This document shows, one piece after another, positions 5,528-57,425 of a DNA stretch of 64,000 nucleotides. The stretch lies in NCBI RefSeq assembly GCF_008520305.1, contig NZ_ML703253.1, positions 237,501-301,500 on the forward strand. Reading direction: 5' to 3'. The stretch is from Mesorhizobium sp. SARCC-RB16n. Lineage in GTDB: Bacteria > Pseudomonadota > Alphaproteobacteria > Rhizobiales > Rhizobiaceae. Every line of letters starts with the position of its first letter. The first letter of the stretch is position 1. Position numbers and translations under genes: made by a program. Below the pieces are notes generated by a model. It worked only from the letters and a program-made list of their open reading frames with translations. It was not told the origin of the DNA and searched no databases.

Positions 5528-5704
5528 GCTGCCCCTCATCCGCCTGCCGGCACCTTCTCCCCGTATAGAGACGGGGAGAAGGGAAGCATCGCGATCGCCG
5601 GCACCAGTTCTGCAACCTAGGAAATTGGCGAAAGCCTCTGCGCAGGCCTCTTTCTCCCCGTCTCTATACGGGGAGAAATGCCCGGCAGGGCAATGAGGGG
5701 CAGC
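5528..5704. repeat. MITE-like composite palindromic repeat (copy 1)
   Basis: A 177-bp element between the macroglobulin gene and pbpC. It begins GCTGCCCCTCAT (5528-5539) and ends with the exact inverse ATGAGGGGCAGC (5693-5704), giving 12-bp perfect terminal inverted repeats. Each end carries a CTCCCCGT...ACGGGGAG palindrome, and the two ends are inverted copies of each other for about 54 bp around a unique core of about 70 bp. A second composite copy lies at 50866-50993 and a half copy at 38177-38233. No ORF of its own. Its right end supplies AGGGG just before the probable start codon of pbpC. Confidence 0.8.
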
Positions 5705-45468: not shown

Positions 45469-45879
45469 CTAGCTTTTCACCTCGAATTGCGGATCGACCG
45501 GGATCTGCATGGCCGTGACCAGATGATTGGTCTGGCCGGCGAGCCCGATGATCGACACCAGTTCGCCGTGCTGCGCATCGGTCATGCCTTTGGCGCGCGC
45601 GGCCGCCGTGTGCGAGTGGACGCAGTAGGAACAGCCATTGGCCGTAGATACCGCGATATAGATCATTTCCTTGGTCAAGGGGTCGATGGCGCTGTCGGCG
45701 ACCATCACCACCTTCAACTGCTCCCATATCCGCTTCAGCGCCGCCGGATCATTGGCGAGCCCGCGCCAGAAATTGTTGACGAAATCTGATTTGCGTGTCG
45801 CACGGATATCGTCGAACACCGCTTTCACCGCCGGGATCTTCTCCATTTCGGCATCGCTGAGAAGTCTTATGGTGGCCAT
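45469..45879 (-). CDS. Carboxymuconolactone decarboxylase/AhpD-like protein
   Basis: All-helical protein of 136 residues with the AhpD-type redox centre C83-SY-C86 and H90 (ANGCSYCVHSH). Members with this CxxC act as alkylhydroperoxidases or in thiol redox relays; true carboxymuconolactone decarboxylases lack it. Monocistronic on the minus strand, separated from the phosphoesterase operon by a hairpin. Confidence 0.88.
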   Translation of the reverse strand: MATIRLLSDAEMEKIPAVKAVFDDIRATRKSDFVNNFWRGLANDPAALKRIWEQLKVVMVADSAIDPLTKEMIYIAVSTANGCSYCVHSHTAAARAKGMTDAQHGELVSIIGLAGQTNHLVTAMQIPVDPQFEVKS

Positions 45880-45984: not shown

Positions 45985-46130
45985 TAGGGTGTGTCGAGAT
46001 TCAGGTCAGGCCGAGTCGAAAACGACGGGTTCCGAGAACCGGAGCGGAGCGTACTTTTCGTACGTGAGCACCGGAAGCGCAGGAAGCCGCCGTTTGCAGG
46101 CCGGCCTCACCTGAATACCGAGACACCCTA
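45985..46130. repeat. 146-bp imperfect inverted repeat (Mesorhizobium-type intergenic palindrome)
   Basis: Left end TAGGGTGTGTCGAGATTCAG is matched in reverse by the right end CTGAATACCGAGACACCCTA, and the arms stay similar up to a central CGTAC-TTTTC-GTACG near 46056. I recall this element as common in Mesorhizobium genomes. Its right-most CTA is the complement of the TAG stop codon of the minus-strand ATPase gene, so the element abuts and supplies that stop. On RNA it would form a long stem and may act as terminator. Confidence 0.75.
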
Positions 46131-47624
46131 ATGAACCGCCGCGTACATGATCCTCTCCTCCGTCGCCTCGGCCGGCGAAAACTCCTCGACGATGCGCCCT
46201 TGCCGGCACACGAGAATGCGATCGGACAGGTTCATGATCTCCGGCAGGTAAGACGAGATCACCACCACCGCGAGCCCCTCATCGGCCAGCCGGTTGATGA
46301 TCTGGTGGATTTCGGCAATCGCACCGACATCGACGCCGCGTGTCGGTTCGTCGAAGATGACGATGCGCGGCTGCTGCACCAGACCCTTGCCGATCACCAC
46401 CTTCTGCTGGTTGCCGCCGGACAGTTCTACCACGCGAGCATTGTCGTTGATCGCCTTGATGTTCAGCGTCTTGGTCCATTCCGCCGAAAGCTGGCGCATC
46501 TCCTGCTGGTTGATCACCCAGGCCTGTTCGCGGCCCGCCGCCAGCAGCCCGCCAAAGAGGTTCTCGGCAATGCCCATCGTCTCGAAGATGCCTTCGCTCT
46601 TGCGGTCCTCGGTGACATAGACGATGCCGTCCGCCACCGCTTCGCTCGGCACGAGATAGCGCACCGGTCTGTCGTCGAGTTCGATCGTGCCGCCGCGCAG
46701 GAAATCACGCTTGTAGATGCCCGACACGATCTTGAAGGTCTCGGTGCGGCCTGAACCGATCAGCCCGAACACGCCGGTGATCTGGCCTTCGAAGATCGAG
46801 AAGGAATTGTTGCGCACGACATTGCCCATCGAAATGTCCTGCACCGAGAGCACCTTCTTGCCGGCCTTGCGCAGCTTGGCCTCATCGCGCTGGCGGTAGA
46901 TCTGTCCCGACAGCGTGCGCCCGACCATCGCGGCAACGATCTTGTCGCGGTCGAAGGCCGAGGTGTCGTCGGTGACGACCAGCTCGCCGTCGCGCAGTAT
47001 TGTGATGCGGTCGGCAATCATCAATGCTTCTTCCAGCGCGTGGCTGATGAAGACGATCGACACACCGTTCGCCTTCAGCCGCCGGATCAGCGCGAAGAAA
47101 TGCCGCTTCTCCTCCGGCGTCAGCGTCGCTGTCGGCTCGTCGAAGATGATGATCTCGGCATTGTGGTGGACGGCGCGCGCGATCTCGACCATCTGCCGCT
47201 TGGCGGCACCCAGTGTTGCCACCATGGCGTTCGGGTCGACGGGAAAATTCAGCGACTGCAGGAACTGCTGTGCTGAAATATACGTGCCGCGCAGCCTGTT
47301 GAGGAATTTTTCAGTACCGAGATAAAGGTTCTGCGCCACCGTCATCGACGGCACCAGGCTGGTCTCCTGGAACACCATGGCGATACCCGCCTCGAGCGCG
47401 GCATGCGGCGAGGCGTAGGCGATCTCCCGGCCTTTGTGGAACATCTTGCCTGATGTGGCATCGACCACGCCGGCGATGATCTTGGTCAGTGTCGACTTGC
47501 CGGCACCATTCTCGCCGAGCAGCGCATGGATTTCCCCCTTGCGCAGTTCGAAGCTGACGTTCTTCACCGCGGGCACGCCACGGTAAGTCTTGGTGACATT
47601 CTCGAGGCGAACGATCGGTTCCAT
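46128..47624 (-). CDS. Sugar ABC transporter ATP-binding protein, tandem-domain (RbsA/XylG class)
   Basis: Two ABC domains in 498 residues: Walker A GENGAGKST near 37-45, Walker B IIIFDEPTATLTPEE, then the degenerate second site (GLIGSGRTETFKIV) with signature LSGGNQQKVVIGKGL and Walker B IVIFDEPTRGVDVG. ATG 47624 shares a base with the stop of the upstream propeller gene. Last gene of a five-gene operon, its stop codon formed by the end of the inverted repeat at 45985-46130. Confidence 0.93.
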   Translation of the reverse strand: MEPIVRLENVTKTYRGVPAVKNVSFELRKGEIHALLGENGAGKSTLTKIIAGVVDATSGKMFHKGREIAYASPHAALEAGIAMVFQETSLVPSMTVAQNLYLGTEKFLNRLRGTYISAQQFLQSLNFPVDPNAMVATLGAAKRQMVEIARAVHHNAEIIIFDEPTATLTPEEKRHFFALIRRLKANGVSIVFISHALEEALMIADRITILRDGELVVTDDTSAFDRDKIVAAMVGRTLSGQIYRQRDEAKLRKAGKKVLSVQDISMGNVVRNNSFSIFEGQITGVFGLIGSGRTETFKIVSGIYKRDFLRGGTIELDDRPVRYLVPSEAVADGIVYVTEDRKSEGIFETMGIAENLFGGLLAAGREQAWVINQQEMRQLSAEWTKTLNIKAINDNARVVELSGGNQQKVVIGKGLVQQPRIVIFDEPTRGVDVGAIAEIHQIINRLADEGLAVVVISSYLPEIMNLSDRILVCRQGRIVEEFSPAEATEERIMYAAVH

Positions 47625-48679
47625 CAGAAACCTCCCGAGGCGAGGTCGACGGCCAGCACGCAATCGCCACCCCTGGAAGCGATGTACAGTTCGCCGCCCT
47701 TCTCCGCCACGCTGCAGATGCCATGGCGCGTACCGTTGGCGCGGCTGTGCAGGCTGAATTGCGGCTGCATGTTCTGATCGAGCCTGACCACCAGCCCGTA
47801 GGAGCGGCTGGGCGACCACGGCTTATGGATGCCCATCGTGCGGATGCCGCCGCATTGCAGTGGTTCGAGGAAGCTGCGGTTGGAGGCCAGCGCCGGCGCG
47901 ATCCAATAGGCCGGCGGCACCTGGTCGATCATGTCCTGGCGGTAGTGCGTCTCCTGCAGCACAAATTCGATCAGCCGGTTGCGCGGGGCGAACAGGGTCA
48001 GCCACGCCCCGCCATCGCCGGCGGGCGACAGCCGCGCGGGATAGCCTGGCAGATGCGTCAGCGCGGTTGAGCGGCTGCCGGTCGCGGCATCGAAACGGAC
48101 AAGCTGATGGCGCCAGCTTTCGCTGACCAGCACATCCCTGCCAAGGATGTGAAGCCCGTAGGGAAAGGCGATGTCGCCGGCCACCTTGCGGAACTCGCCA
48201 CCCGCCGCGTCCCGTTTCCAAAGCGAACCGGACGCGCCTTTTTTCATCAGATCGGCAGCCCATTGCGACGGCGCGAATTCGGCCGAACCATTGGCCAGCC
48301 ACAGCGTGCCGTCTTCTGCATAGGCAAGCGCGGTGATGCAGTGGATCCCCGCCGCCAAAAACACCTCCCTGCCCGCGATCAACAGCTTGCCGCTCTCCAG
48401 CCCCACCGTCAGTTCGCCTGAAGGCGACAGCGCCAGCGCCGTGACGGGAGACGGAAAGGCCTCGACCACGACAGGTTCCACGCCAACAGCAATCGCGTAG
48501 ATGGCGTTGCCGCTGGAGGCCAGCACCCGGCCATCGGCAACCAGCAGATTGTCCGGCTCGGTCAATTCGGCGAAAGCCGGCGCGTCATCGAGCCGCGTGT
48601 TGGGACGGAAGGCGCCGTCGAGCGGCGGGATGGTCACCGCCTTGCCGCGAAACATATCCAGGATCGGGTCGAGGATCAT
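47624..48679 (-). CDS. SMP-30/gluconolactonase-like beta-propeller protein (stand-alone)
   Basis: Propeller protein of 351 residues with repeated strands of the form DGTLWLANGS, GRDVLVSESWRHQLVRFD and GGAWLTLFAPRNRLIEF, typical of the SMP-30/strictosidine-synthase group. No signal peptide. It overlaps the fused permease-propeller gene by four bases and the ATPase gene by one, so all three are coupled. It is only distantly like the propeller half of the fusion, and some expected metal ligands are hard to place, so it could be a non-catalytic or altered-specificity member. Confidence 0.8.
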   Translation of the reverse strand: MILDPILDMFRGKAVTIPPLDGAFRPNTRLDDAPAFAELTEPDNLLVADGRVLASSGNAIYAIAVGVEPVVVEAFPSPVTALALSPSGELTVGLESGKLLIAGREVFLAAGIHCITALAYAEDGTLWLANGSAEFAPSQWAADLMKKGASGSLWKRDAAGGEFRKVAGDIAFPYGLHILGRDVLVSESWRHQLVRFDAATGSRSTALTHLPGYPARLSPAGDGGAWLTLFAPRNRLIEFVLQETHYRQDMIDQVPPAYWIAPALASNRSFLEPLQCGGIRTMGIHKPWSPSRSYGLVVRLDQNMQPQFSLHSRANGTRHGICSVAEKGGELYIASRGGDCVLAVDLASGGF

Positions 48680-50799
48680 GGTTTTGCTCCCCAATAGGAA
48701 GCGGGGCTGGTCCAGTTCGGGTCGGCGCCCGAAATCTTGTAGCGGCCGATGCGGTTGTTGAGGATGCCGCCAACGAACAGGAAACCCTTGTGTTCGCGCA
48801 TCGAGGTGACCATCGGATGCGCGCCGCCCGTCAAGTCGCCCATCGCCTCGACGATGCCGCCCTTCTCGTTGAATTTCACCACGCCGCCGGTGTTGATGTT
48901 GGGGAACAGCCACTCGTCCTGCGGCAGCCGGCGCGTCATGCGCTTGCGCATGTCGGGGTGGCGCAGCGAGAGGTCGAAGCTCGGCGTGCGCATGCCCAGC
49001 CACGCCATCCAGTAATTGCCGTCCGAGGCGCGGTTGATGTTGTCGGGATAACCCGGCATGTCGCGGATGACGCATTCGGCGGTGCCGGCCTTCGGCCCTT
49101 CCAGCCAATAGCGATGCACGCGGCAGGCCCAGCTTTCGGCGAAGAACAGCGACTTGCCGTCATGCGCAATGCAGACACCATTGGTGTAGCGGTAGCCGTC
49201 GAGCAGCGTCTTCGTCGAGCCATCCCTGGGATCGTAGACCAGCAGCCGGCCGGTGGCACGGTTCTCGATCGAGTCCAGCGCCCAGTCATGGGCGTCGTAT
49301 CGCTTCGTCGAATCCGTGAAATAGATGCGGCCGTCGGGCGCGATGTCGCAATCATTGGGGTCGCGCAGCCGAGCATCGTCGACGATCGAGGTCCAGGAGC
49401 GTGATGTCTCCGCCGACAGGCGTTTCACCTCGCGGTCCGGCGAAACCGAATATAGTCCCATGGCGCCGACGCAGCTGATCAGATTGCCCGATCTGTCGAA
49501 GGCCAAGCCCAGTGGAAAACCGCCAATATGGGCGAATACTTCCGACCTGACATAATCCGGCGCGAAGAAGCGGACGATCTCGCCATGGCGCGTGCCGCAA
49601 TAGAGATGGTCGTCGCGGTCGAGGATGACGTCCTCCGGCCCTTCCAGTTCGCCGAGCCCGATATGGTCCGCCGCAGACAGCCGGTTGTCGAGCGCGTAAG
49701 GCGTGCCGGAGCCCGGCACCGCGGACTGTGTTTCGCCCATCTTGAGATAGACCGGCGCGACATAGACTTCGTTCAGCACCTTGTGGCGGTTCTTCAGCCA
49801 GCGGATGTCGATGGTCACCGCCACCGCCAGCATGATGCCGAGCACCATCTGGTTGGTGCCGGTGCCGTAGCCCAGCCGGATCAGCCCGTTGGTCATGGTC
49901 AGCACGATGATGGCGCCCATCAGGCCCTTGATCACCGAGCCGCGCCCACCGCCGAGGCTGACGCCGCCGACCACCGCCGCGGTCAGCGCCATGATCTCCA
50001 GGTTCAGGCCCGTACCCGGCCCTGCCCCGCTCAGCCGGCAGGCGATGAGAAAGCCGCCGATCGAGGCGCAGAAGCCGGAAAAGACATAGGTCATGAACAC
50101 GGTGCGGCGCACGCGGATGCCGGCATTATGCGCCGAGCGCCTGGAACCGCCCACCGCCAGCACGTGCCAACCGGGCCGCGATCGTGTCAACGCGATATGG
50201 GTGACGATGGCCAGAATGATCGCCAGCCACACCGAGACGGAGAGGCCCCAGAAGGTGCTGTCGCCGATGAAATCCAGCACCTTCGACGTCGCGGTGGAAA
50301 GTTGCACGTCGGCTGCATAGCTGGTGACCAGGATGTCGAACAGCGCCCGGCCGAAGATGAAGGTGACCAGCGTGGTGAGGAAGGCGCGCAGCCTGAGATA
50401 GCCGACAAGGTAGCCATTGATCGCCCCGAACACCAGGCCGGTGGCCAGCGAGGCTGCCAGCGCCAGCCAGATCGACTGTTCGAGGATGAAGAAGACATAG
50501 ACGGCGGAGAAGCAGGACAGCGCGAAGATCGAGCCGACCGAGAGATCGATGCCGCCGCCCAGCATCACCACGGTCATGCCGGTGACCACCATCGAGAATT
50601 CACCGAGCTGGCGGGTCGATTCCTGCAGCGAAGTCAGCTTGAAGAAGCCCGGAATGATCGAGCCGAAGGTCGCCAATGTCACCACCAGCGCCAGGAACGG
50701 AATGGCGTTGTCGGTCCAGCGCTTGGTCAGGATCTCGCCGACCAGATGGTCGGGCACGAGATTGTAGCGCCAGGACTGGAGGCGTTCGCGAAAGCTCAT
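48676..50799 (-). CDS. Fusion protein: ribose-class ABC permease joined to SMP-30/strictosidine-synthase-like lactonase
   Basis: One uninterrupted frame of 707 residues. Residues 1 to about 338 are an RbsC-type permease with GMTVVMLGGGIDLSVGSIF and VVGGVSLGGGRGSVIKGL. After a short linker (APVYLKMGETQSAVPG), residues about 371-707 form a six-bladed propeller with candidate metal ligands in LEGPEDVIL (Glu), DPNDCDIAPDG (Asn) and PDNINRASDG (Asp). Permeases of this class end in the cytoplasm, so the enzyme half would face the channel exit. ATG 50799 is chosen as the start of the conserved permease; ATG 50841 is possible. No stop, frame break or change in composition at the joint. Confidence 0.88.
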   Translation of the reverse strand: MSFRERLQSWRYNLVPDHLVGEILTKRWTDNAIPFLALVVTLATFGSIIPGFFKLTSLQESTRQLGEFSMVVTGMTVVMLGGGIDLSVGSIFALSCFSAVYVFFILEQSIWLALAASLATGLVFGAINGYLVGYLRLRAFLTTLVTFIFGRALFDILVTSYAADVQLSTATSKVLDFIGDSTFWGLSVSVWLAIILAIVTHIALTRSRPGWHVLAVGGSRRSAHNAGIRVRRTVFMTYVFSGFCASIGGFLIACRLSGAGPGTGLNLEIMALTAAVVGGVSLGGGRGSVIKGLMGAIIVLTMTNGLIRLGYGTGTNQMVLGIMLAVAVTIDIRWLKNRHKVLNEVYVAPVYLKMGETQSAVPGSGTPYALDNRLSAADHIGLGELEGPEDVILDRDDHLYCGTRHGEIVRFFAPDYVRSEVFAHIGGFPLGLAFDRSGNLISCVGAMGLYSVSPDREVKRLSAETSRSWTSIVDDARLRDPNDCDIAPDGRIYFTDSTKRYDAHDWALDSIENRATGRLLVYDPRDGSTKTLLDGYRYTNGVCIAHDGKSLFFAESWACRVHRYWLEGPKAGTAECVIRDMPGYPDNINRASDGNYWMAWLGMRTPSFDLSLRHPDMRKRMTRRLPQDEWLFPNINTGGVVKFNEKGGIVEAMGDLTGGAHPMVTSMREHKGFLFVGGILNNRIGRYKISGADPNWTSPASYWGAKP

Positions 50800-50865
50800 C
50801 AGGTCACTGCTGCAAGAGATGGAGAAAGATGTGGTCGGCATCCGAGGGGCAATCGGTCAAGGTTT

Positions 50866-50993
50866 GCGCTGCCCCTCACCCTTACCCTCTCCCCGCGAAG
50901 GACGGGGAGAGGGGGTCGTCAACGTTGCGTCTAGTCCCTTCTCCCCGTCACTATACGGGGAGAAGGTGCCGGCAGGCGGATGAGGGGCAGCGC
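50866..50993. repeat. MITE-like composite palindromic repeat (copy 2)
   Basis: 128-bp element with perfect 13-bp terminal inverted repeats, GCGCTGCCCCTCA (50866-50878) and TGAGGGGCAGCGC (50981-50993), and two internal CTCCCCG...CGGGGAG palindromes. Same family as 5528-5704. It lies inside an operon, between the binding-protein gene and the permease-lactonase fusion, where it may reduce read-through or stabilise the binding-protein mRNA. Confidence 0.8.
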
Positions 50994-51013: not shown

Positions 51014-52039
51014 CTACTTCGCCGCCGCTTCGGCCTGCAGCGCCTTCAGGTCCCAGCAGCTGTCGGGCTTGAGGTCGGCCTTGGTCGTCGCCTTCTCCAG
51101 CGTGTAGATGTAGGTGTGCGAGGTGCCGGCCGGCTGGCCGCTCTGCAGCAGGTATTTGATGATGGCGTTCATGTCGCCCGACTGCCGGGCAAGTTCTGTC
51201 ATGACGACAGCACCGTAAGTACCGTCCTGCAGCTTGTCGCAATCGGCCGCCTTTTCGCCGCCGCCGGTGGTGACCAAAAACACCTTGCCGTCGAGCTTGG
51301 CGTCGCGGATCGCGGCGGATGCGCCAGTGGCGTCACCATCCCAGAAATCGATGATCGAGCAGATGTCCGGGTTCTGTTGCAGCATGGTCGTCGTCACGTT
51401 GCGCGACGTCGTCGCATCCCAGTTGGAGTCGGGCTTGGCCACGACCTTGAACTCGGGGTGCTTGTCGAGCACTTTCATAATGCCGGCATATTGATAAAGG
51501 CTGGACGAGTTGGCCTGGTCGCCCTGCACCAGCCCGATCTTCTTGGACGAATTCTCGCCGCAGCCCTTGATCGCGGCTTCGGCTTCGAGCTGGCCGAGCC
51601 GGTCCCAGTCGCTGCCGACGAAGGCGTCGGCGGGGAAATTCGCCGGGTTGTCCACGAGGATCACATAGGTGCCGGCGGCCTGCGCCTTCTTCATCAGCTT
51701 GGAGTAGGAGTTGAGGTCCGGCGCATGGATGATCAGCACATCAGGCCTGGTGTCCGACGAGATCGCATCGGTGATCGCCTGCGCGCCGGCATCGACCACC
51801 CAGTTCGGATCGCGCGTCTCGAACGTGCCGCCCCAGGCCTCGACCTCCTTCTTCAGGTAGTGCGCCCAGCCTTGCGCCAGGTCGAAACCCATCGCCAGCG
51901 GCACCAGCATGACGCGCTTGCCTTTCAGCGCTTGTGCATAGGCAGCAGGCCCCGGATCGTCAGCGGCGAAAGTCGGCGCCACGAAGGCGGTGACGGCAAG
52001 GGCCGTGGCCGCCGCCATGAGTGTTCTGATCAGTTTCAT
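51014..52039 (-). CDS. Sugar ABC transporter periplasmic binding protein (ribose class)
   Basis: Signal peptide over about residues 1-25 (cleavage after TFA), mature type I receptor with RVMLVPLAMGFDLAQGWAHYLKK, VLIIHAPDLNSYSKLMKKAQ, YVILVDNPANF and GLVQGDQANSSS. 341 residues, with several Cys (CGENSSKK, DICSII, CDKL, SCWD) that may form disulfides. Sits between the stand-alone permease gene and the fusion gene of the same operon. Ligand unknown; two propeller lactonases in the operon point to an aldonolactone or similar. Confidence 0.9.
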   Translation of the reverse strand: MKLIRTLMAAATALAVTAFVAPTFAADDPGPAAYAQALKGKRVMLVPLAMGFDLAQGWAHYLKKEVEAWGGTFETRDPNWVVDAGAQAITDAISSDTRPDVLIIHAPDLNSYSKLMKKAQAAGTYVILVDNPANFPADAFVGSDWDRLGQLEAEAAIKGCGENSSKKIGLVQGDQANSSSLYQYAGIMKVLDKHPEFKVVAKPDSNWDATTSRNVTTTMLQQNPDICSIIDFWDGDATGASAAIRDAKLDGKVFLVTTGGGEKAADCDKLQDGTYGAVVMTELARQSGDMNAIIKYLLQSGQPAGTSHTYIYTLEKATTKADLKPDSCWDLKALQAEAAAK

Positions 52040-52126: not shown

Positions 52127-53113
52127 CTAAATGTCACCCTGCTGCGCGGTCTGTTCGTCGCGCGGATTGATGATGCCGTCGACGATGATGGCGCCGAGCA
52201 GGATCGCCGCCTTGATCAGGTTCTGGTAGAGCAGCGGAATGTCGATGATGGTCATGGCGTTGAGCAGGATGCCGATCAGAGCTGCCCCGACCAGCACGTT
52301 GCGCACCCCGCCTCGTCCGCCCGACAGGCCGATGCCGCCGATCACTGCCACCAGCACGATGTCGTAGAGCAGCGTCGAATTGACGACCCGGGTGTTGATC
52401 GAATGCAGGCTGGCCGCCGTCAGCAGGCCGGCGATCAGTGCCACGCAAGCGGACAGCACATAGCGCAGCACCAGCATTGGCCGCACCGGAATGCCGATGT
52501 TGCGCGCCGCAACCGGATTGTCACCGGCGAAATAGATGTAGCGGCCCCATTTGGTGTAGCGCAGGAACAGGAAGAACAGGAAGGCGAGCCCCGCGAAGAC
52601 GAACACCTCGATCGGAACGTCGAGGAAGCGCAGACCGCCGAGCAGTTCCACCCAATGGCCCTGCGGCACCGGCACCGCGTCTTGCGTGATCAGTTGCGAG
52701 CGGACATAGCCGAAGACGAAGGAGCCGGTCGCCAGCGTCACGAAGATCGCCGGCACATCGGCGTAGGCGACGAGAAAGCCGTTGAGCAGGCCGATGGCGA
52801 GCACGCCGGCCAGCACGTAGGCGAAGGCCAGCCCATCCGGCGTTCCGGTGTTGAGCAGTTGCAGATACCAGGCGACCGACATCGCCATGATCGCCACCGC
52901 CGACAGGTCGATGCCGCGGCCGATGATGACGACCGCCATGCCCAGCGCCAGAATACCCAGCACCGAGACCGAGCGGACGATGGCGACGAGATTGTTGGGA
53001 TCGATGAAGCCAGGCAGGGCTATAGCCGCGGCAACGAACAGCACCACCGCTATGGCGAAGACAATGCCTTCCTGATTCAGGCTCCTGAAGTTCAGCCAGC
53101 CGGCCATGTTCAT
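52127..53113 (-). CDS. Sugar ABC transporter permease (ribose class)
   Basis: Permease of 328 residues with GMAVVIIGRGIDLSAVAIM and VIGGIGLSGGRGGVRNVLVG. First gene of the five-gene operon. Together with the permease half of the fusion protein it would form a heterodimeric channel carrying one tethered lactonase. Start ATG 53113 lies just behind a perfect 18-bp palindrome; a second ATG is two codons later. Confidence 0.9.
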   Translation of the reverse strand: MNMAGWLNFRSLNQEGIVFAIAVVLFVAAAIALPGFIDPNNLVAIVRSVSVLGILALGMAVVIIGRGIDLSAVAIMAMSVAWYLQLLNTGTPDGLAFAYVLAGVLAIGLLNGFLVAYADVPAIFVTLATGSFVFGYVRSQLITQDAVPVPQGHWVELLGGLRFLDVPIEVFVFAGLAFLFFLFLRYTKWGRYIYFAGDNPVAARNIGIPVRPMLVLRYVLSACVALIAGLLTAASLHSINTRVVNSTLLYDIVLVAVIGGIGLSGGRGGVRNVLVGAALIGILLNAMTIIDIPLLYQNLIKAAILLGAIIVDGIINPRDEQTAQQGDI

Positions 53114-53385: not shown

Positions 53386-54819
53386 TCAGTTCCCGGCCAT
53401 GTGGCCGGAAACCTCGGCGCCGGCGGTCCTCGGCAACACCAGGAAACGGAACGACGCCACCAGCCCGATGACGCCGATCACCAGGAAGGCTGCTCGAAAA
53501 TCGACGAGATCGAGCGCCGTCCGGTCCCTGGCGATCTGCGACAGATTGAGGATCGCCGCCGCCACGGCGACGCCGAACAACATTGAGATCTGCTGGAGCA
53601 TTGAGGACAACGTCGCCGCGGAGCTGCGCTGCCCGGCGGCGATATCGGCAAAGGCCAGCGTGTTGAGCGCGGTGAACTGCATCGAGCGCGACAGGCCAGC
53701 GATCAGCATCAGCGCCACCACCAGCGCTTGTGGCGTCTGCGGTGAGATCGCGGCGCAAGCCATGATCGATGCGGACGCGATGATGCCGTTGACGACCATC
53801 ACCGAGCGGAAGCCGAAGCGGCGCAGCGTCGGCGTCGTCACCGTCTTCATGCCGAGATTACCGAGGAAATAGGCCAGGATCATCATGCCGGCATCGACGG
53901 GCGAGAGACCGAAGCCGACCTGGAACAACAGCGGCAAAAGGAACGGCGTGGCGTTGATCGCGACGCGGAAGATGGTGCCGGCGGCGAGCGTCGAGATGGC
54001 GAAGGTCAGCACCTTGAAGGACGACAGGTCGAGCAGCGGATGCGGCGCGCGACGGAGATGGCGCACCGCCAGCCAGCCGATGACAATCCCCGCCGCGATC
54101 AGCCCTATAGTCGGCCAGGCGCCATCCTCCGGATGCGCGATGCGCTCGAGCCCGTAGAGCAGGCAGGCGAGCCCCAGCGACGTCAGGAAGAAACCCGGCC
54201 AGTCGAGCGGCTTGGGATCGGCTTCACGGTCGCCCGGGATGAAGCGGGCGACCAGCGCCAGCCCGATCATGCCGAGCGGAATGTTGATGAAGAAATTCCA
54301 GTGCCAGGACAGATAGGTGGTGATGAAGCCACCAAGCACCGGCCCGACCACGGGCGCGAACAGCGCCGGCCAGGTGATCAGCGCCGTGGCGTTGAGCAAT
54401 TCGGATTTGGATGCGTTGCGCAGCACCAGGATACGGCCGACCGGCGTCATCAGTGCGCTGCCCAGACCCTGCACGGCGCGGGCAACGACGAATTCAGTCA
54501 GGTTCTGCGAGAGACCGCAGGCGAGCGAAGCCAGAGTGAACAGAGCGATGGCCGCGAGAAAAATGTTGCGTGCGCCAAAGCGGTCGGCGAGCCAGCCCGA
54601 CAGTGGCACGAACACCGCCATGGTCAGCATGTAGACGGTGATGCCGGTGCTCATCGCCACCGCCGGCACACCGAAAGAGGCGCCCATCTGCGGCAGCGAG
54701 GTCGAGATGATCGTCGAATCCAGCAGTTGCATGAAGAAGGCGATGGCGACGATCAGCGCCACACGCCGCGAATTCCCGGTTGGGTCGGCTGAAGCTTCGG
54801 TCTCGGAAATGGCAGTCAT
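53386..54819 (-). CDS. MFS multidrug efflux transporter, DHA2 (EmrB/QacA) family
   Basis: Fourteen-span drug:proton antiporter of 477 residues. Seen: QLLDSTIISTSLPQMG at helix 1 (D and T of the family motif), motif A GWLADRFGARNIFL, motif C-like region VVGPVLGGFITTYLSWHWNFFINIP. ATG 54819 is chosen as the first Met before the first span; the frame extends 18 codons further without support. Divergent from the OCD-like gene with a 114-bp shared control region, so it may export a product of, or an inhibitor related to, that pathway. Confidence 0.9.
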   Translation of the reverse strand: MTAISETEASADPTGNSRRVALIVAIAFFMQLLDSTIISTSLPQMGASFGVPAVAMSTGITVYMLTMAVFVPLSGWLADRFGARNIFLAAIALFTLASLACGLSQNLTEFVVARAVQGLGSALMTPVGRILVLRNASKSELLNATALITWPALFAPVVGPVLGGFITTYLSWHWNFFINIPLGMIGLALVARFIPGDREADPKPLDWPGFFLTSLGLACLLYGLERIAHPEDGAWPTIGLIAAGIVIGWLAVRHLRRAPHPLLDLSSFKVLTFAISTLAAGTIFRVAINATPFLLPLLFQVGFGLSPVDAGMMILAYFLGNLGMKTVTTPTLRRFGFRSVMVVNGIIASASIMACAAISPQTPQALVVALMLIAGLSRSMQFTALNTLAFADIAAGQRSSAATLSSMLQQISMLFGVAVAAAILNLSQIARDRTALDLVDFRAAFLVIGVIGLVASFRFLVLPRTAGAEVSGHMAGN

Positions 54820-54933
54820 GACGGACCGCTTTGAACAGCATTTGGCCGACTCCGTCCAGACAAGAGCCAACAAACTTTCGTGTGGCGTCGCGGCCTGTTA
54901 TGGATGAGCGGGGTTGCTGAGGAACGCAGACGC

Positions 54934-55935
54934 ATGAAGCCCATCTACATCGACTACCTCAACGCCCTCGACATCGAAGCCCTTGCCATGACCGATGCAG
55001 AAATCATCGGCGCGGTCGAGGCCGGGCTCGTTGCGCAAGGCAAGGGCCAGACAGTGATCGAGCCGCGTGTCCATCTCGAACCCGACCCATCCTTTCACGG
55101 CCATTTCAATGTCTTGCGCGGCTATGTTGCGCCGCTCGATACGGCCGGAGTGAAGATCGTCGGCGACTATGTCGACAATTACCTGCACGGCCTGCCCTCG
55201 GAATTCGGCATCCTCAATTTGTTCGATCCACGCACCGGCGCGCCGCGCGCCATTCTCGACGCCACGGTCATCACCGACATGCGCACCGGAGCCGTCACAG
55301 CCATCGGTGCCAAACACCTGGCGCGCAAGAGTTCGAAAGTGCTGGCCCATATCGGCGCGCGTGGCACCGCCTATTGGAACGTGCGCCTGCTCGACCATCT
55401 CTTCGATTTCGACGAAATCCGCGTCCATTCGCGCCGGCCGGAAAGCCGCGACGGCTTTGCCGCAAAACTCTCCGCCGACCTTGGCAAGCCCGTCAGAGCG
55501 ATGGCCGACTGGGAAAGCTGCGTCAAGGGTGCCGACATCGTCGTCGAGGCCTCGCGCCTGCCCGAGCCGCAGCCGCTGCTCAAGACCGAATGGATCAAGC
55601 CGGGCGCGCTGGTGGTGCCCTATGGCACGATGAGTGCCGTGGAGCTGTCGCTGACCGACATCATGCAGAAGATGGTCGTCGACGACTGGGGCCAGTGCAA
55701 GGGCGGCAAGTTCGGCTCGCTGCGCGAGCATGTCGAGACAGGGCGGCTGAGCGAAAAGACGCTGCATGCCGAGCTCGGCCAGATCGCCGCCGGCCTCAAG
55801 GTTGGTCGTGAACGCGACGACGAAACAATCCTGTTCTGGCATCGCGGCCTGTCATTGTCCGACATCGCGTTGGGCAAGGCGATGCTGGCCAAGGCGCAGG
55901 CGCAAGGCATCGGCCAGAGGTTGCGTTTCGCATGA
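54934..55935 (+). CDS. Ornithine cyclodeaminase/mu-crystallin family protein
   Basis: NAD(P)-dependent enzyme of 333 residues. Seen: FNVLRGYVAPLDTAGVKIVGDYVDN, GAPRAILDATVITDMRTGAVTAIGAKHLAR (substrate-binding segment) and the nucleotide loop HIGARGTAYWNV in place of the usual GxGxQA. Family members include ornithine cyclodeaminase, L-lysine cyclodeaminase and delta-1-pyrroline-2-carboxylate or imine reductases. The ATG of the ammonia-lyase-like gene overlaps its stop (ATGA), so the two act together. GAGGAACG precedes ATG 54934. Substrate not assignable. Confidence 0.88.
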   Translation: MKPIYIDYLNALDIEALAMTDAEIIGAVEAGLVAQGKGQTVIEPRVHLEPDPSFHGHFNVLRGYVAPLDTAGVKIVGDYVDNYLHGLPSEFGILNLFDPRTGAPRAILDATVITDMRTGAVTAIGAKHLARKSSKVLAHIGARGTAYWNVRLLDHLFDFDEIRVHSRRPESRDGFAAKLSADLGKPVRAMADWESCVKGADIVVEASRLPEPQPLLKTEWIKPGALVVPYGTMSAVELSLTDIMQKMVVDDWGQCKGGKFGSLREHVETGRLSEKTLHAELGQIAAGLKVGRERDDETILFWHRGLSLSDIALGKAMLAKAQAQGIGQRLRFA

Positions 55936-57425
55936 GCGCGCTCGTCCTCACCGGGGCTGGCGTCAGTGTCGGCGATGTCGCCGCCGTCGCCCGCGAGGCA
56001 CGCAAGGTGGAGATCGGAACCGATGTCATCGGCAGGCTGGAGAAGGCGCGAAAAATGCTCGACCAGGCCGCCGCCGCCGGCCAACAGATTTACGGCCTGA
56101 ACACCGGCCTCGGCGCCAATCTCGGCACATCGGTCGAGGGTGATGCGAGCGCCTTCCAGCGCCAGTTGCTGGAAGGCCGCAGCGGTGCGGTCGGCGAGGC
56201 CCTGCCGATCGAGGCCGTGCGTGCCACCATGCTTGCCCGCCTGACAATGCTGTCGGCCGGCGGGTCCGGCCTTTCGCCGCCGGTCTTTGTCGCTTTGGTC
56301 GATGTCCTCAATGCCGGCGTCCATCCGGTTATGCCGTCGCTGGGCTCGATCGGCGCCGGCGACCTTGTGCTGATGACCGCGCTCGCCCGCCTGCTGATCG
56401 GCGAAGGCGAAGCCGATTATCAGGGAAGGCGCATGCCGGCAGTCAAGGCGCTGATGATGGCCCGCCTCGGCCCGATTGGGCTGGCGCCCAAGGACGGGTT
56501 GTCGCTGATCAACGCATCCGCCGTATCCGCCGGCAGCGGCGCGCTTGTGGTCACGGATGCGCTGTCGGCCCTTGCCCAGCAGCAGCAGGCCGGCGCGCTG
56601 ACCATGGAAGGTTTTGGCGCCAACCGCACCATCCTCGATCCGCGCCTGCACATGGCACGGCCGGCCGCCGGCCAGCAGGAAGCCGCCAAGGCGCTGCACG
56701 ATCTTCTCGCCCGCGACGAAGCGCCGGCGCCCACCGCCATACAGGACCCGCTGTCGATCCGCTGCATGCCCTCGATCCACGGCGCGCTGATCGAGGCGAT
56801 CAACCAGGCAAGACGAGCCGTCGAGATCGAACTGAATGCCGCCGCCGACAACCCGCTGGTTCTGGGCGACGATGAGCTTGTGCTGTCGACCGGCAACTTC
56901 CACACGGCGGCGTTGGCGCTCGCCTTCGAGACGCTCAGCCTGGCAATCGCTCAATGTGCCGCCGCCAGTGTAGCCCGCTTCATCCAGCTCACCGGCTCGG
57001 GCCGCAACGGCTTGCCGAAATATCTGTCGCCGATCGGTGGCGCCTCGGCCGGTTTCGTGCCGTTGCAGAAGACGGCGACATCGATCCTGGCCGCCATCCG
57101 CCACAAGGCCAATCCGGTAATGCTCGATTTTCTCCCGGTTTCGGAAGGTGTCGAGGATCACGCCACCCAGTCACCCCTCGCCGTTTCGAAATGCGCCGGG
57201 ATGATCGCGCTGTGGCGGCGGCTGATCGCCTTCGAACTGATGGCCGCCGCCCAGGCCGTCGACCTGCGCGATGGGCTGACGCTGGCACCGCAAACCACGC
57301 ACGTTCAGACAGCCGTGCGCGGGCTCGTCCCAATCCTGAAGGAAGACAGGCCGCTCGGCATCGATGCCGAAGCACTCTGCGCCGCGCTCACAGGCGGCAC
57401 ATGGCAGGCCCTATGCCGTTTATGA
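55932..57425 (+). CDS. Aromatic amino acid ammonia-lyase (HAL/PAL) family protein lacking the MIO triad
   Basis: Member of the histidine/phenylalanine ammonia-lyase fold, 497 residues. Conserved: YGLNTGLGANLG (the Tyr-loop), GNFHTAALALAFE, and VEDHATQ near the C-terminus. However, where HAL has G-S-V-G-A-S-G-D-L, this protein reads G-S-I-G-A-G-D-L (138-145): the serine that builds the MIO group is missing and the loop is one residue shorter. The QDPYSLR motif reads QDPLSIR (271-277), so the active-site Tyr is Leu. Ammonia-lyase activity by the MIO route is therefore doubtful. Coupled to the OCD-like gene. Confidence 0.85.
   Translation: MSALVLTGAGVSVGDVAAVAREARKVEIGTDVIGRLEKARKMLDQAAAAGQQIYGLNTGLGANLGTSVEGDASAFQRQLLEGRSGAVGEALPIEAVRATMLARLTMLSAGGSGLSPPVFVALVDVLNAGVHPVMPSLGSIGAGDLVLMTALARLLIGEGEADYQGRRMPAVKALMMARLGPIGLAPKDGLSLINASAVSAGSGALVVTDALSALAQQQQAGALTMEGFGANRTILDPRLHMARPAAGQQEAAKALHDLLARDEAPAPTAIQDPLSIRCMPSIHGALIEAINQARRAVEIELNAAADNPLVLGDDELVLSTGNFHTAALALAFETLSLAIAQCAAASVARFIQLTGSGRNGLPKYLSPIGGASAGFVPLQKTATSILAAIRHKANPVMLDFLPVSEGVEDHATQSPLAVSKCAGMIALWRRLIAFELMAAAQAVDLRDGLTLAPQTTHVQTAVRGLVPILKEDRPLGIDAEALCAALTGGTWQALCRL

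Follow-up and report, generated by a model that had tools for sequence, protein, structure and literature searches.

A window of 64,000 nucleotides from Mesorhizobium sp. SARCC-RB16n (contig NZ_ML703253.1, positions 237,501 to 301,500 of the forward strand; positions below are those of this window) contains a five-gene ATP-binding cassette (ABC) transporter operon, in which the third gene joins an RbsC-type permease in one reading frame to a six-bladed propeller of the lactonase type. The other genes encode an unfused permease (perm1), a substrate-binding protein, a free second propeller (prop2) and an RbsA-type ATPase (Table 1). We propose, with a probability of roughly one in two, that this is an RbsABC-type importer which hydrolyses a lactone or ester at the cytoplasmic exit of its channel and thereby traps it. 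It is apparently a known class of transporter, to which a fused, active-looking lactonase-type propeller and a constant inactive partner have been added.

The fusion gene has no stop within its frame in the translation of the window. An in-frame ATG is also present upstream of position 50799, at 50841; a start codon aligned with 50799 (taken in relatives as the one nearest to that position) is found in 76 of 80 related loci, each of which then encodes exactly 707 residues. Next to the BPD_transp_2 match of the permease half, the propeller half matches the Pfam families SSL_N (residues 367–411, 49.5 bits, cut-off 18.9), SGL (residues 429–602, 60.7 bits, cut-off 26.3) and Str_synth (residues 482–568, 75 bits, cut-off 25), the last being the best propeller match. 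There is no break in composition at the joint, with GC contents of 0.644, 0.616 and 0.632, and GC contents at third codon positions of 0.889, 0.848 and 0.821, for residues 1–333, 334–366 and 367–707, respectively. A first-pass annotation, made from the letters of the window, had described one 707-residue frame at 48676..50799 without stop or compositional break at the joint, and this is correct on all points, with the strand, which it left unstated, being minus.

An artefact of sequencing or annotation was rejected, since the fusion is a single open frame in 80/80 near loci. These loci, at 80–98% identity, are the best 80 of 135 relatives from a scan of genome contigs, which covered all available species using short exact patterns, and the nearest relatives found are Mesorhizobium with 98% identity. 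The fusion is also present in 47/47 distant loci at 40–74% identity, and the domain pair, for which the first-pass annotation had suggested a search in other genomes, was thus recovered in both sets; that homologues would be two separate proteins, with a stop codon missing here, was not borne out, as all 80 near loci are fused. In wider samples drawn within the Pseudomonadota, fusions were found in 7/289 genomes of the class (E ≤ 1e-100), 11/398 of the phylum (E ≤ 1e-70) and 44/247 of the family (E ≤ 1e-70), with the lowest matches at about 40% identity, all of full length apart from those truncated where a contig ends, and no internal stop in any listed fusion match of these samples. Matches over at least 80% of the fusion query were also found in 15 plasmid records, Pantoea and Paraburkholderia among them, and ten of the 12 with an annotated gene at that place name it 'SMP-30/gluconolactonase/LRE family protein'. 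An old fusion inherited as a unit should show co-varying distances in its two halves, and these co-vary across 59 members (r = 0.859, 0/999 shuffles). The fusion is, by these matches, a property of this cassette and not a habit of the permease family, since in five genomes only six matches span both halves, many others being to the permease or the propeller part alone, and 20 permease-only matches from four genomes (each also with a fusion) are permeases of 295–357 residues. No description of the fusion was found in titles or abstract openings of open-access papers in PMC, a scope outside which most subscription papers fall. Mesorhizobium ciceri has a second fusion cassette (G001:C1:5568359-5570473, present as L093 and L145), which is 53% identical and is preceded by genes for an aldehyde dehydrogenase and an alpha/beta hydrolase.

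In all 47 distant loci, tblastn showed the permease gene to come first, followed by those of the binding protein, the fusion, the second propeller and the RbsA-type ATPase, and the near loci keep the same five-gene order apart from cuts by contig ends. Fusion, prop2 and ATPase are each matched in 80/80 near loci, as is the binding protein (truncated where some contigs end, and represented in L049 by no more than a reversed piece at the end of the contig), which is also matched in all 47 distant loci; perm1 is present in 77/80 near and 47/47 distant loci, with the three remaining sequences (L049, L063 and L065) beginning after its place, and is presumably the partner of the fused permease. The prop2 gene and its 4-base overlap with the fusion gene were passed over in the first-pass annotation; the overlap is identical in 77/80 near loci. 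According to Pfam the cassette has the traits of RbsABC-type (CUT2-like) importers, i.e. a pair of BPD_transp_2 permeases, a Peripla_BP_4 binding protein and a double ATPase in one chain, but differs from them by the C-terminal propeller on one permease, the second propeller gene in the operon and, in distant clades, neighbours linked to acid and CoA metabolism. The fusion also lies far below the cut-offs of the named NCBIfam sugar-transporter equivalogs (e.g. ribose permease, 145.3 vs 398), and the cassette can therefore not be assigned to any of these transporters; the best models for the ATPase are AraG and the xylose and RbsA ATPases, with all 25 listed models below cut-off.

The propeller half was modelled as a six-bladed propeller with a predicted local distance difference test (pLDDT) score of 82.8. 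TGW6 and strictosidine synthase tie at the top of its fold neighbours, and DFPase and the bacterial lactonase RPA3624 lie within about 2 Z units of them (VIA-align). Profiles, modelled fold and metal-ligand residues together place the fused half in the SSL (strictosidine-synthase-like)/DFPase/SMP-30 superfamily of six-bladed propellers. It had been described as an SMP-30/strictosidine-synthase-like propeller, which holds for the lactonase superfamily and the conserved metal site, but by sequence it is nearer to strictosidine-synthase-like proteins such as TGW6 than to classical SMP-30. TGW6 (8kg3) is a free-standing rice protein, and DFPase, SMP-30, RPA3624 and Drp35 are free enzymes, whereas the propeller described here is joined to a permease. 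With regard to the metal site, E389 aligns with residue 21 of DFPase if the matched stretch (23–222 to 17–223) starts ungapped, and the correspondence of D586 with DFPase D229 was drawn by eye; both DFPase residues are metal ligands.

The propeller is predicted to be located in the cytoplasm, as was proposed for the C-terminus in the first-pass annotation, and this prediction is based on the charge pattern of the loops. Within the permease half, positive charge is highest in the loop of residues 205–234 (mean K+R of 6.6, no D or E), which fits the cytoplasmic coupling region of RbsC-type permeases, and the region after the final hydrophobic segment likewise carries positive charge (K+R of 3.2 over residues 336–345); the C-terminus of RbsC is cytoplasmic. 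No solved structure related to the permease half was found by sequence search with E up to 1.

From these features we infer a transport cycle in which cytoplasmic position, metal binding, hydrolysis, lactone substrate, direct transfer and the role of prop2 are all part of the proposal. The periplasmic protein would bind a small lactone or ester, which would be imported through a channel formed by perm1 together with the fused permease half, driven by the RbsA-type ATPase. The fused propeller, held on its short conserved linker at the cytoplasmic side, would open the arriving ring using a bound divalent metal, and the resulting hydroxy acid, being charged, would be unable to slip back and would be passed to acid-activating or oxidising enzymes. 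The most likely role of prop2, which has lost the metal site, would be to assist the fused propeller structurally or to regulate it. The tethering can be read directly from the gene, and it is the hand-over from the channel that we infer. Transport proteins joined or coupled to a solute-modifying enzyme are known from the LplT-Aas fusion and from group translocation by the phosphotransferase system (PTS), but these are of another transporter class and chemistry and are not ABC importers; modification of the substrate on entry, familiar from the PTS, has to our knowledge not been described for ABC importers. If the proposal is right, the cassette would be an example of such modification by an ABC importer and a system in which hydrolysis by an enzyme tethered at the exit of a channel could be tested, as well as a case of a conserved pseudoenzyme partner within a transporter operon. 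It would also offer a way to name uptake systems for lactones (mevalonolactone-type) that are hidden by annotation, where the 'SMP-30/gluconolactonase/LRE' label conceals the permease.

The main rival, which we consider unlikely, is that the fused propeller, partnered by prop2, is a sensor and not an enzyme, which would bind the imported compound or its product in the cytoplasm and slow down the transporter in response (trans-inhibition). With duplicates removed (five fusion and four prop2 genes had been entered twice in the alignments), all six residues E389, D390, N/D482, N540, D586 and N587 are kept in 123/125 fusions, and this over 40–98% identity, which is beyond the usual demand of ligand binding; the nearest known folds moreover include hydrolases. 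In prop2 the six are kept together in 0/119 sequences, and 109/119 keep none of five. The fused propeller thus appears to be a tethered enzyme, active by its conserved residues, and the free second propeller a conserved pseudoenzyme. That prop2 persists in every near and distant locus without its metal site does indicate that propellers can matter here without catalysis, and fits the sensor, as do the L166 and L167 fusions, which have lost metal-site residues although fusion and cassette were kept. The latter also counts against our proposal of a hydrolytic importer, as does the full-length AlphaFold model (28 sequences), whose pLDDT of 41.5 makes it unusable for the relation between propeller and channel. 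L166 and L167 are long-branch fusions, in which a change from enzyme to sensor is possible. No Pfam or NCBIfam family matches prop2, its weak PDB profile matches include 8kg3 and DFPase, and its strongly conserved N-terminal stretch (MI-DPILD-FRGKAVTIPP-DGAFRPN) is a possible point of docking to perm1 or the membrane.

Also improbable, to a similar degree, is that the propeller is a true hydrolase tethered for stoichiometry and location only, with its substrate arriving via the cytosol and without hand-over. An expression link without fusion seems workable, as a plasmid of R. tumorigenes (L082:5671-7551) has an SMP-30 gene separate from and adjoining an RbsC-type permease pair; over 223 residues, this SMP-30 is 27% identical to the fused propeller, and no prop2 is annotated alongside. 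Every cassette examined keeps the fusion, however, and the linker is conserved and selected, which suggests that geometry is important. Mean column conservation in the linker is 0.946, vs 0.90–0.94 in the other segments of the fusion (81 sequences), and its motif is recognisable in most distant paralogues displayed. The ratio of nonsynonymous to synonymous differences (pN/pS, 17 comparisons) is 0.143 for residues 334–384, vs 0.150 for the propeller and 0.248 for the permease, by which measure purifying selection on codons 334–384 is as strong as on the propeller.

A non-hydrolytic reaction such as a condensation or isomerisation, as in strictosidine synthase, would agree with Str_synth being the best Pfam match and with strictosidine synthases among the top fold matches, but strictosidine synthase, a plant enzyme with a catalytic glutamate, has no catalytic metal, and here the metal-site residues are kept, TGW6 ties with strictosidine synthase and two hydrolytic folds follow closely, so that we hold this to be very unlikely. 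Most improbable of all is that the mature proteins are separate, either because the propeller is cleaved off or because its translation begins internally. The linker residue M354 could serve as such a start and does not vary among 28 near sequences, but the distant paralogues displayed have L, M and other residues there, which does not favour a conserved internal start, and the codons around the joint are under selection.

Returning to the proposed hydrolytic importer, its substrate was approached through the genes surrounding the relatives of the cassette. Among 87 neighbours of distant fusions we found short-chain dehydrogenases (8), AMP-binding proteins (6), enoyl-CoA hydratases (5), aldehyde dehydrogenases (4), class III CoA-transferases (4), HMG-CoA (3-hydroxy-3-methylglutaryl-CoA) reductases (2) and HMGL-like (HMG-CoA-lyase-like) proteins (2), whereas the 92 neighbours of 20 unfused RbsC loci contain DeoR, xylose-isomerase-like, FGGY, PfkB, ROK and MocA families, with no AMP-binding, enoyl-CoA hydratase, CoA-transferase III, HMG-CoA reductase or HMGL family among their top 25. 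The comparison is a contrast and not a statistic: the tallies are of the top 25 Pfam families, the control comprises all 92 neighbours in four genomes, and the 87 proteins were hand-picked from 171 neighbours of 48 loci (five from L099 and L102, the rest from L142–L177), omitting near-clade loci, other plasmid loci (including the Shinella reductase of L084), L163, the near-duplicates L175 and L176 and the majority of genes that carried a label before. Genes in distant loci were called with a codon-score caller trained on the window operon, which called none in the lower-GC loci L143 and L159 and missed most of L096 as well as genes in other loci, such as prop2 and the reductase of L200. Of the sugar permease described in the first-pass annotation, the RbsC class stands and the sugar is doubtful, as distant fusions adjoin acid and CoA genes and unfused RbsC transporters adjoin sugar genes; these neighbourhoods argue for acids or lactones as the substrate in some clades.

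Several neighbourhoods weigh against this. Short-chain and aldehyde dehydrogenases also occur near unfused loci (2 and 2 of 92, vs 8 and 4 of 87), one distant cassette (L146) adjoins a sugar-type FGGY kinase, L083 has a mixed set of neighbours, and the Pantoea plasmid carries sugar-type genes upstream of the cassette. In the clade of the window itself, the neighbours (AhpD/CMD, class-IV aminotransferase, quinone oxidoreductase and glutamine-synthetase-like) point to no lactone. In 28 loci outside the Mesorhizobium-type set, class-IV aminotransferases (15), quinone oxidoreductases (18), glutamine-synthetase-like (12) and isochorismatase-like proteins (13) are found nearby, the family names having been verified on one representative each.

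The substrate may be narrowed in two related clades of fusions, I and II, where a degradative HMG-CoA reductase accompanies the cassette. On a Shinella plasmid (L084) this gene is directly upstream of the cassette (TIGR00532, 434 bits vs 259.95). Relatives of the Shinella reductase were found in 36/247 genomes of the family (E ≤ 1e-40), 12 of which also have a fusion, and in 8/12 the two are at most 8 kb apart (once, in G719, on opposite strands), compared with 0.07 genomes expected within 8 kb under random placement (P about 5e-16). The nine reductase-linked fusions, from the eight genomes and the Shinella plasmid, form exactly two fully supported clades in a tree of 60 fusions, which leaves out the long-branch rows L166, L167 and L172; the linkage requires two changes on this tree (0/500 shuffles). 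Four loci (L198, L199, L201 and L202) share the order HMG-CoA reductase, CoA-transferase III, enoyl-CoA hydratase, perm1, binding protein, fusion, prop2 and ATPase, with ten genes of such rows verified by Pfam. In L199 and in L198 the gene after that of the ATPase encodes an HMGL-like lyase (on the opposite strand in the latter), whereas in L201 the lyase gene adjoins that of the reductase and in L202 none was called; an HMGL-like gene also follows the ATPase in L171 (clade I).

Mevalonate is the substrate of degradative HMG-CoA reductase and readily forms a delta-lactone, and the synthesis of fungal siderophores includes mevalonyl-CoA ligase and hydratase steps, of which the clade II route would be the reverse. 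In clade I the propeller would open mevalonolactone, and in clade II anhydromevalonolactone, the acid then being converted to its CoA form by the transferase, to the mevalonyl level by the hydratase, and further by reductase and lyase. We consider this the most parsimonious reading of an importer that carries a lactonase-type domain and is encoded among enzymes of acid activation. The gene rows thus point to mevalonolactone-type substrates in these two clades, and only these, the clade of the window not being included. The imported lactone or ester postulated in the first-pass annotation therefore fits the neighbours of the two clades (HMG-CoA reductase, CoA transferase, enoyl-CoA hydratase and HMG-CoA-lyase-like protein), which suit a lactone-forming acid, but this does not carry over to the window's clade, as no such reductase is found at E ≤ 1e-40 in G001, which is the genome of a relative with 98% identity. 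Further points against the link are that the eight genomes come from related organisms, that the limit of 8 kb was chosen with the hits already known, that 24/36 reductase genomes have no fusion, so that use of the reductase does not need the cassette, that 32/44 fusion genomes have no such reductase, and that the transported form could be mevalonate itself rather than the lactone. A fuller version of our proposal is offered tentatively, as one we would sooner doubt than accept: a hydrolytic exit chamber with a catalytic propeller in the permease and a dead sister propeller as obligate partner, where mevalonolactone (clade I) and anhydromevalonolactone (clade II) would be trapped as acids, and the sister clades, including that of the window, would be adapted to other lactones or esters.

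Table 1. Position of the fusion gene, its segments and the surrounding cassette genes in the window
Feature	Position	Strand	Description
perm1	52127..53113	minus	Unfused RbsC-type permease, 328 aa; BPD_transp_2 95.6 bits, cut-off 26.8
Substrate-binding protein	51014..52039	minus	341 aa; Peripla_BP_4, Pfam 132.6 bits
Fusion protein	50799->48676	minus	707 aa; RbsC-type permease and six-bladed propeller in one frame
Permease half	49801..50724	minus	Residues 26-333; BPD_transp_2 at residues 67-327, 113.4 bits, Pfam cut-off 26.8
Linker	49702..49800	minus	Residues 334-366; motif of the kind KNRHKxLxxVYVSP
Propeller half	48679..49701	minus	Residues 367-707; predicted metal-site residues E389, D390, N482, N540, D586, N587
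prop2	47624..48679	minus	Free second propeller, 351 aa; 4-base overlap (ATGA) with fusion gene
RbsA-type double ABC ATPase	46128..47624	minus	498 aa; start overlaps prop2 stop; ABC_tran in two stretches
AhpD/CMD-like protein	45469..45879	minus	Pfam CMD 64.9 bits; usual downstream gene in the window's clade

The AhpD/CMD gene is present downstream in 74/80 near loci, and in the other six (L028, L035, L049, L062, L063 and L076) the sequences end early. On the other side of the cassette, positions 53386-57425 hold a DHA2-type major facilitator superfamily gene and a divergent pair (ornithine-cyclodeaminase-like and histidine-ammonia-lyase-like), an arrangement found in 41–43 of the 80 near loci and in 0/28 loci outside the Mesorhizobium-type set. 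A palindromic intergenic repeat (CTTCTCCCCGT..) occurs in three copies (50937-50965, 5554-5582 and 5650-5678) with none expected by chance; the first is located between the binding-protein gene and the fusion gene, and the repeat resembles rhizobial intergenic mosaic elements.

Among the distant loci, three cassettes are accompanied by related proteins, at L142:13530-16187 (885 residues), L154:13666-16338 (890 residues) and L151:4997-6904 (635 residues); that of L142 combines an AMP-binding ligase and an enoyl-CoA hydratase in one chain, and those of L154 and L151 are 56% and 60% identical to it. A relation to the levulinate (Lva) pathway was considered for the Sulfitobacter-type operon with APH kinase, AMP-binding protein and acyl-CoA dehydrogenase, but was dropped as no family matches the small protein encoded next to the kinase. 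Finally, a repeated gene row is located upstream of one clade of fusions (L097:1519-6887 and L174–L176), which in L097 and L175 contains genes for an APH-type kinase, an acyl-CoA dehydrogenase and a small protein that matches no family, with an AMP-binding ligase and DUF7064 added in L097, and which was matched by gene lengths only in L174 and L176.

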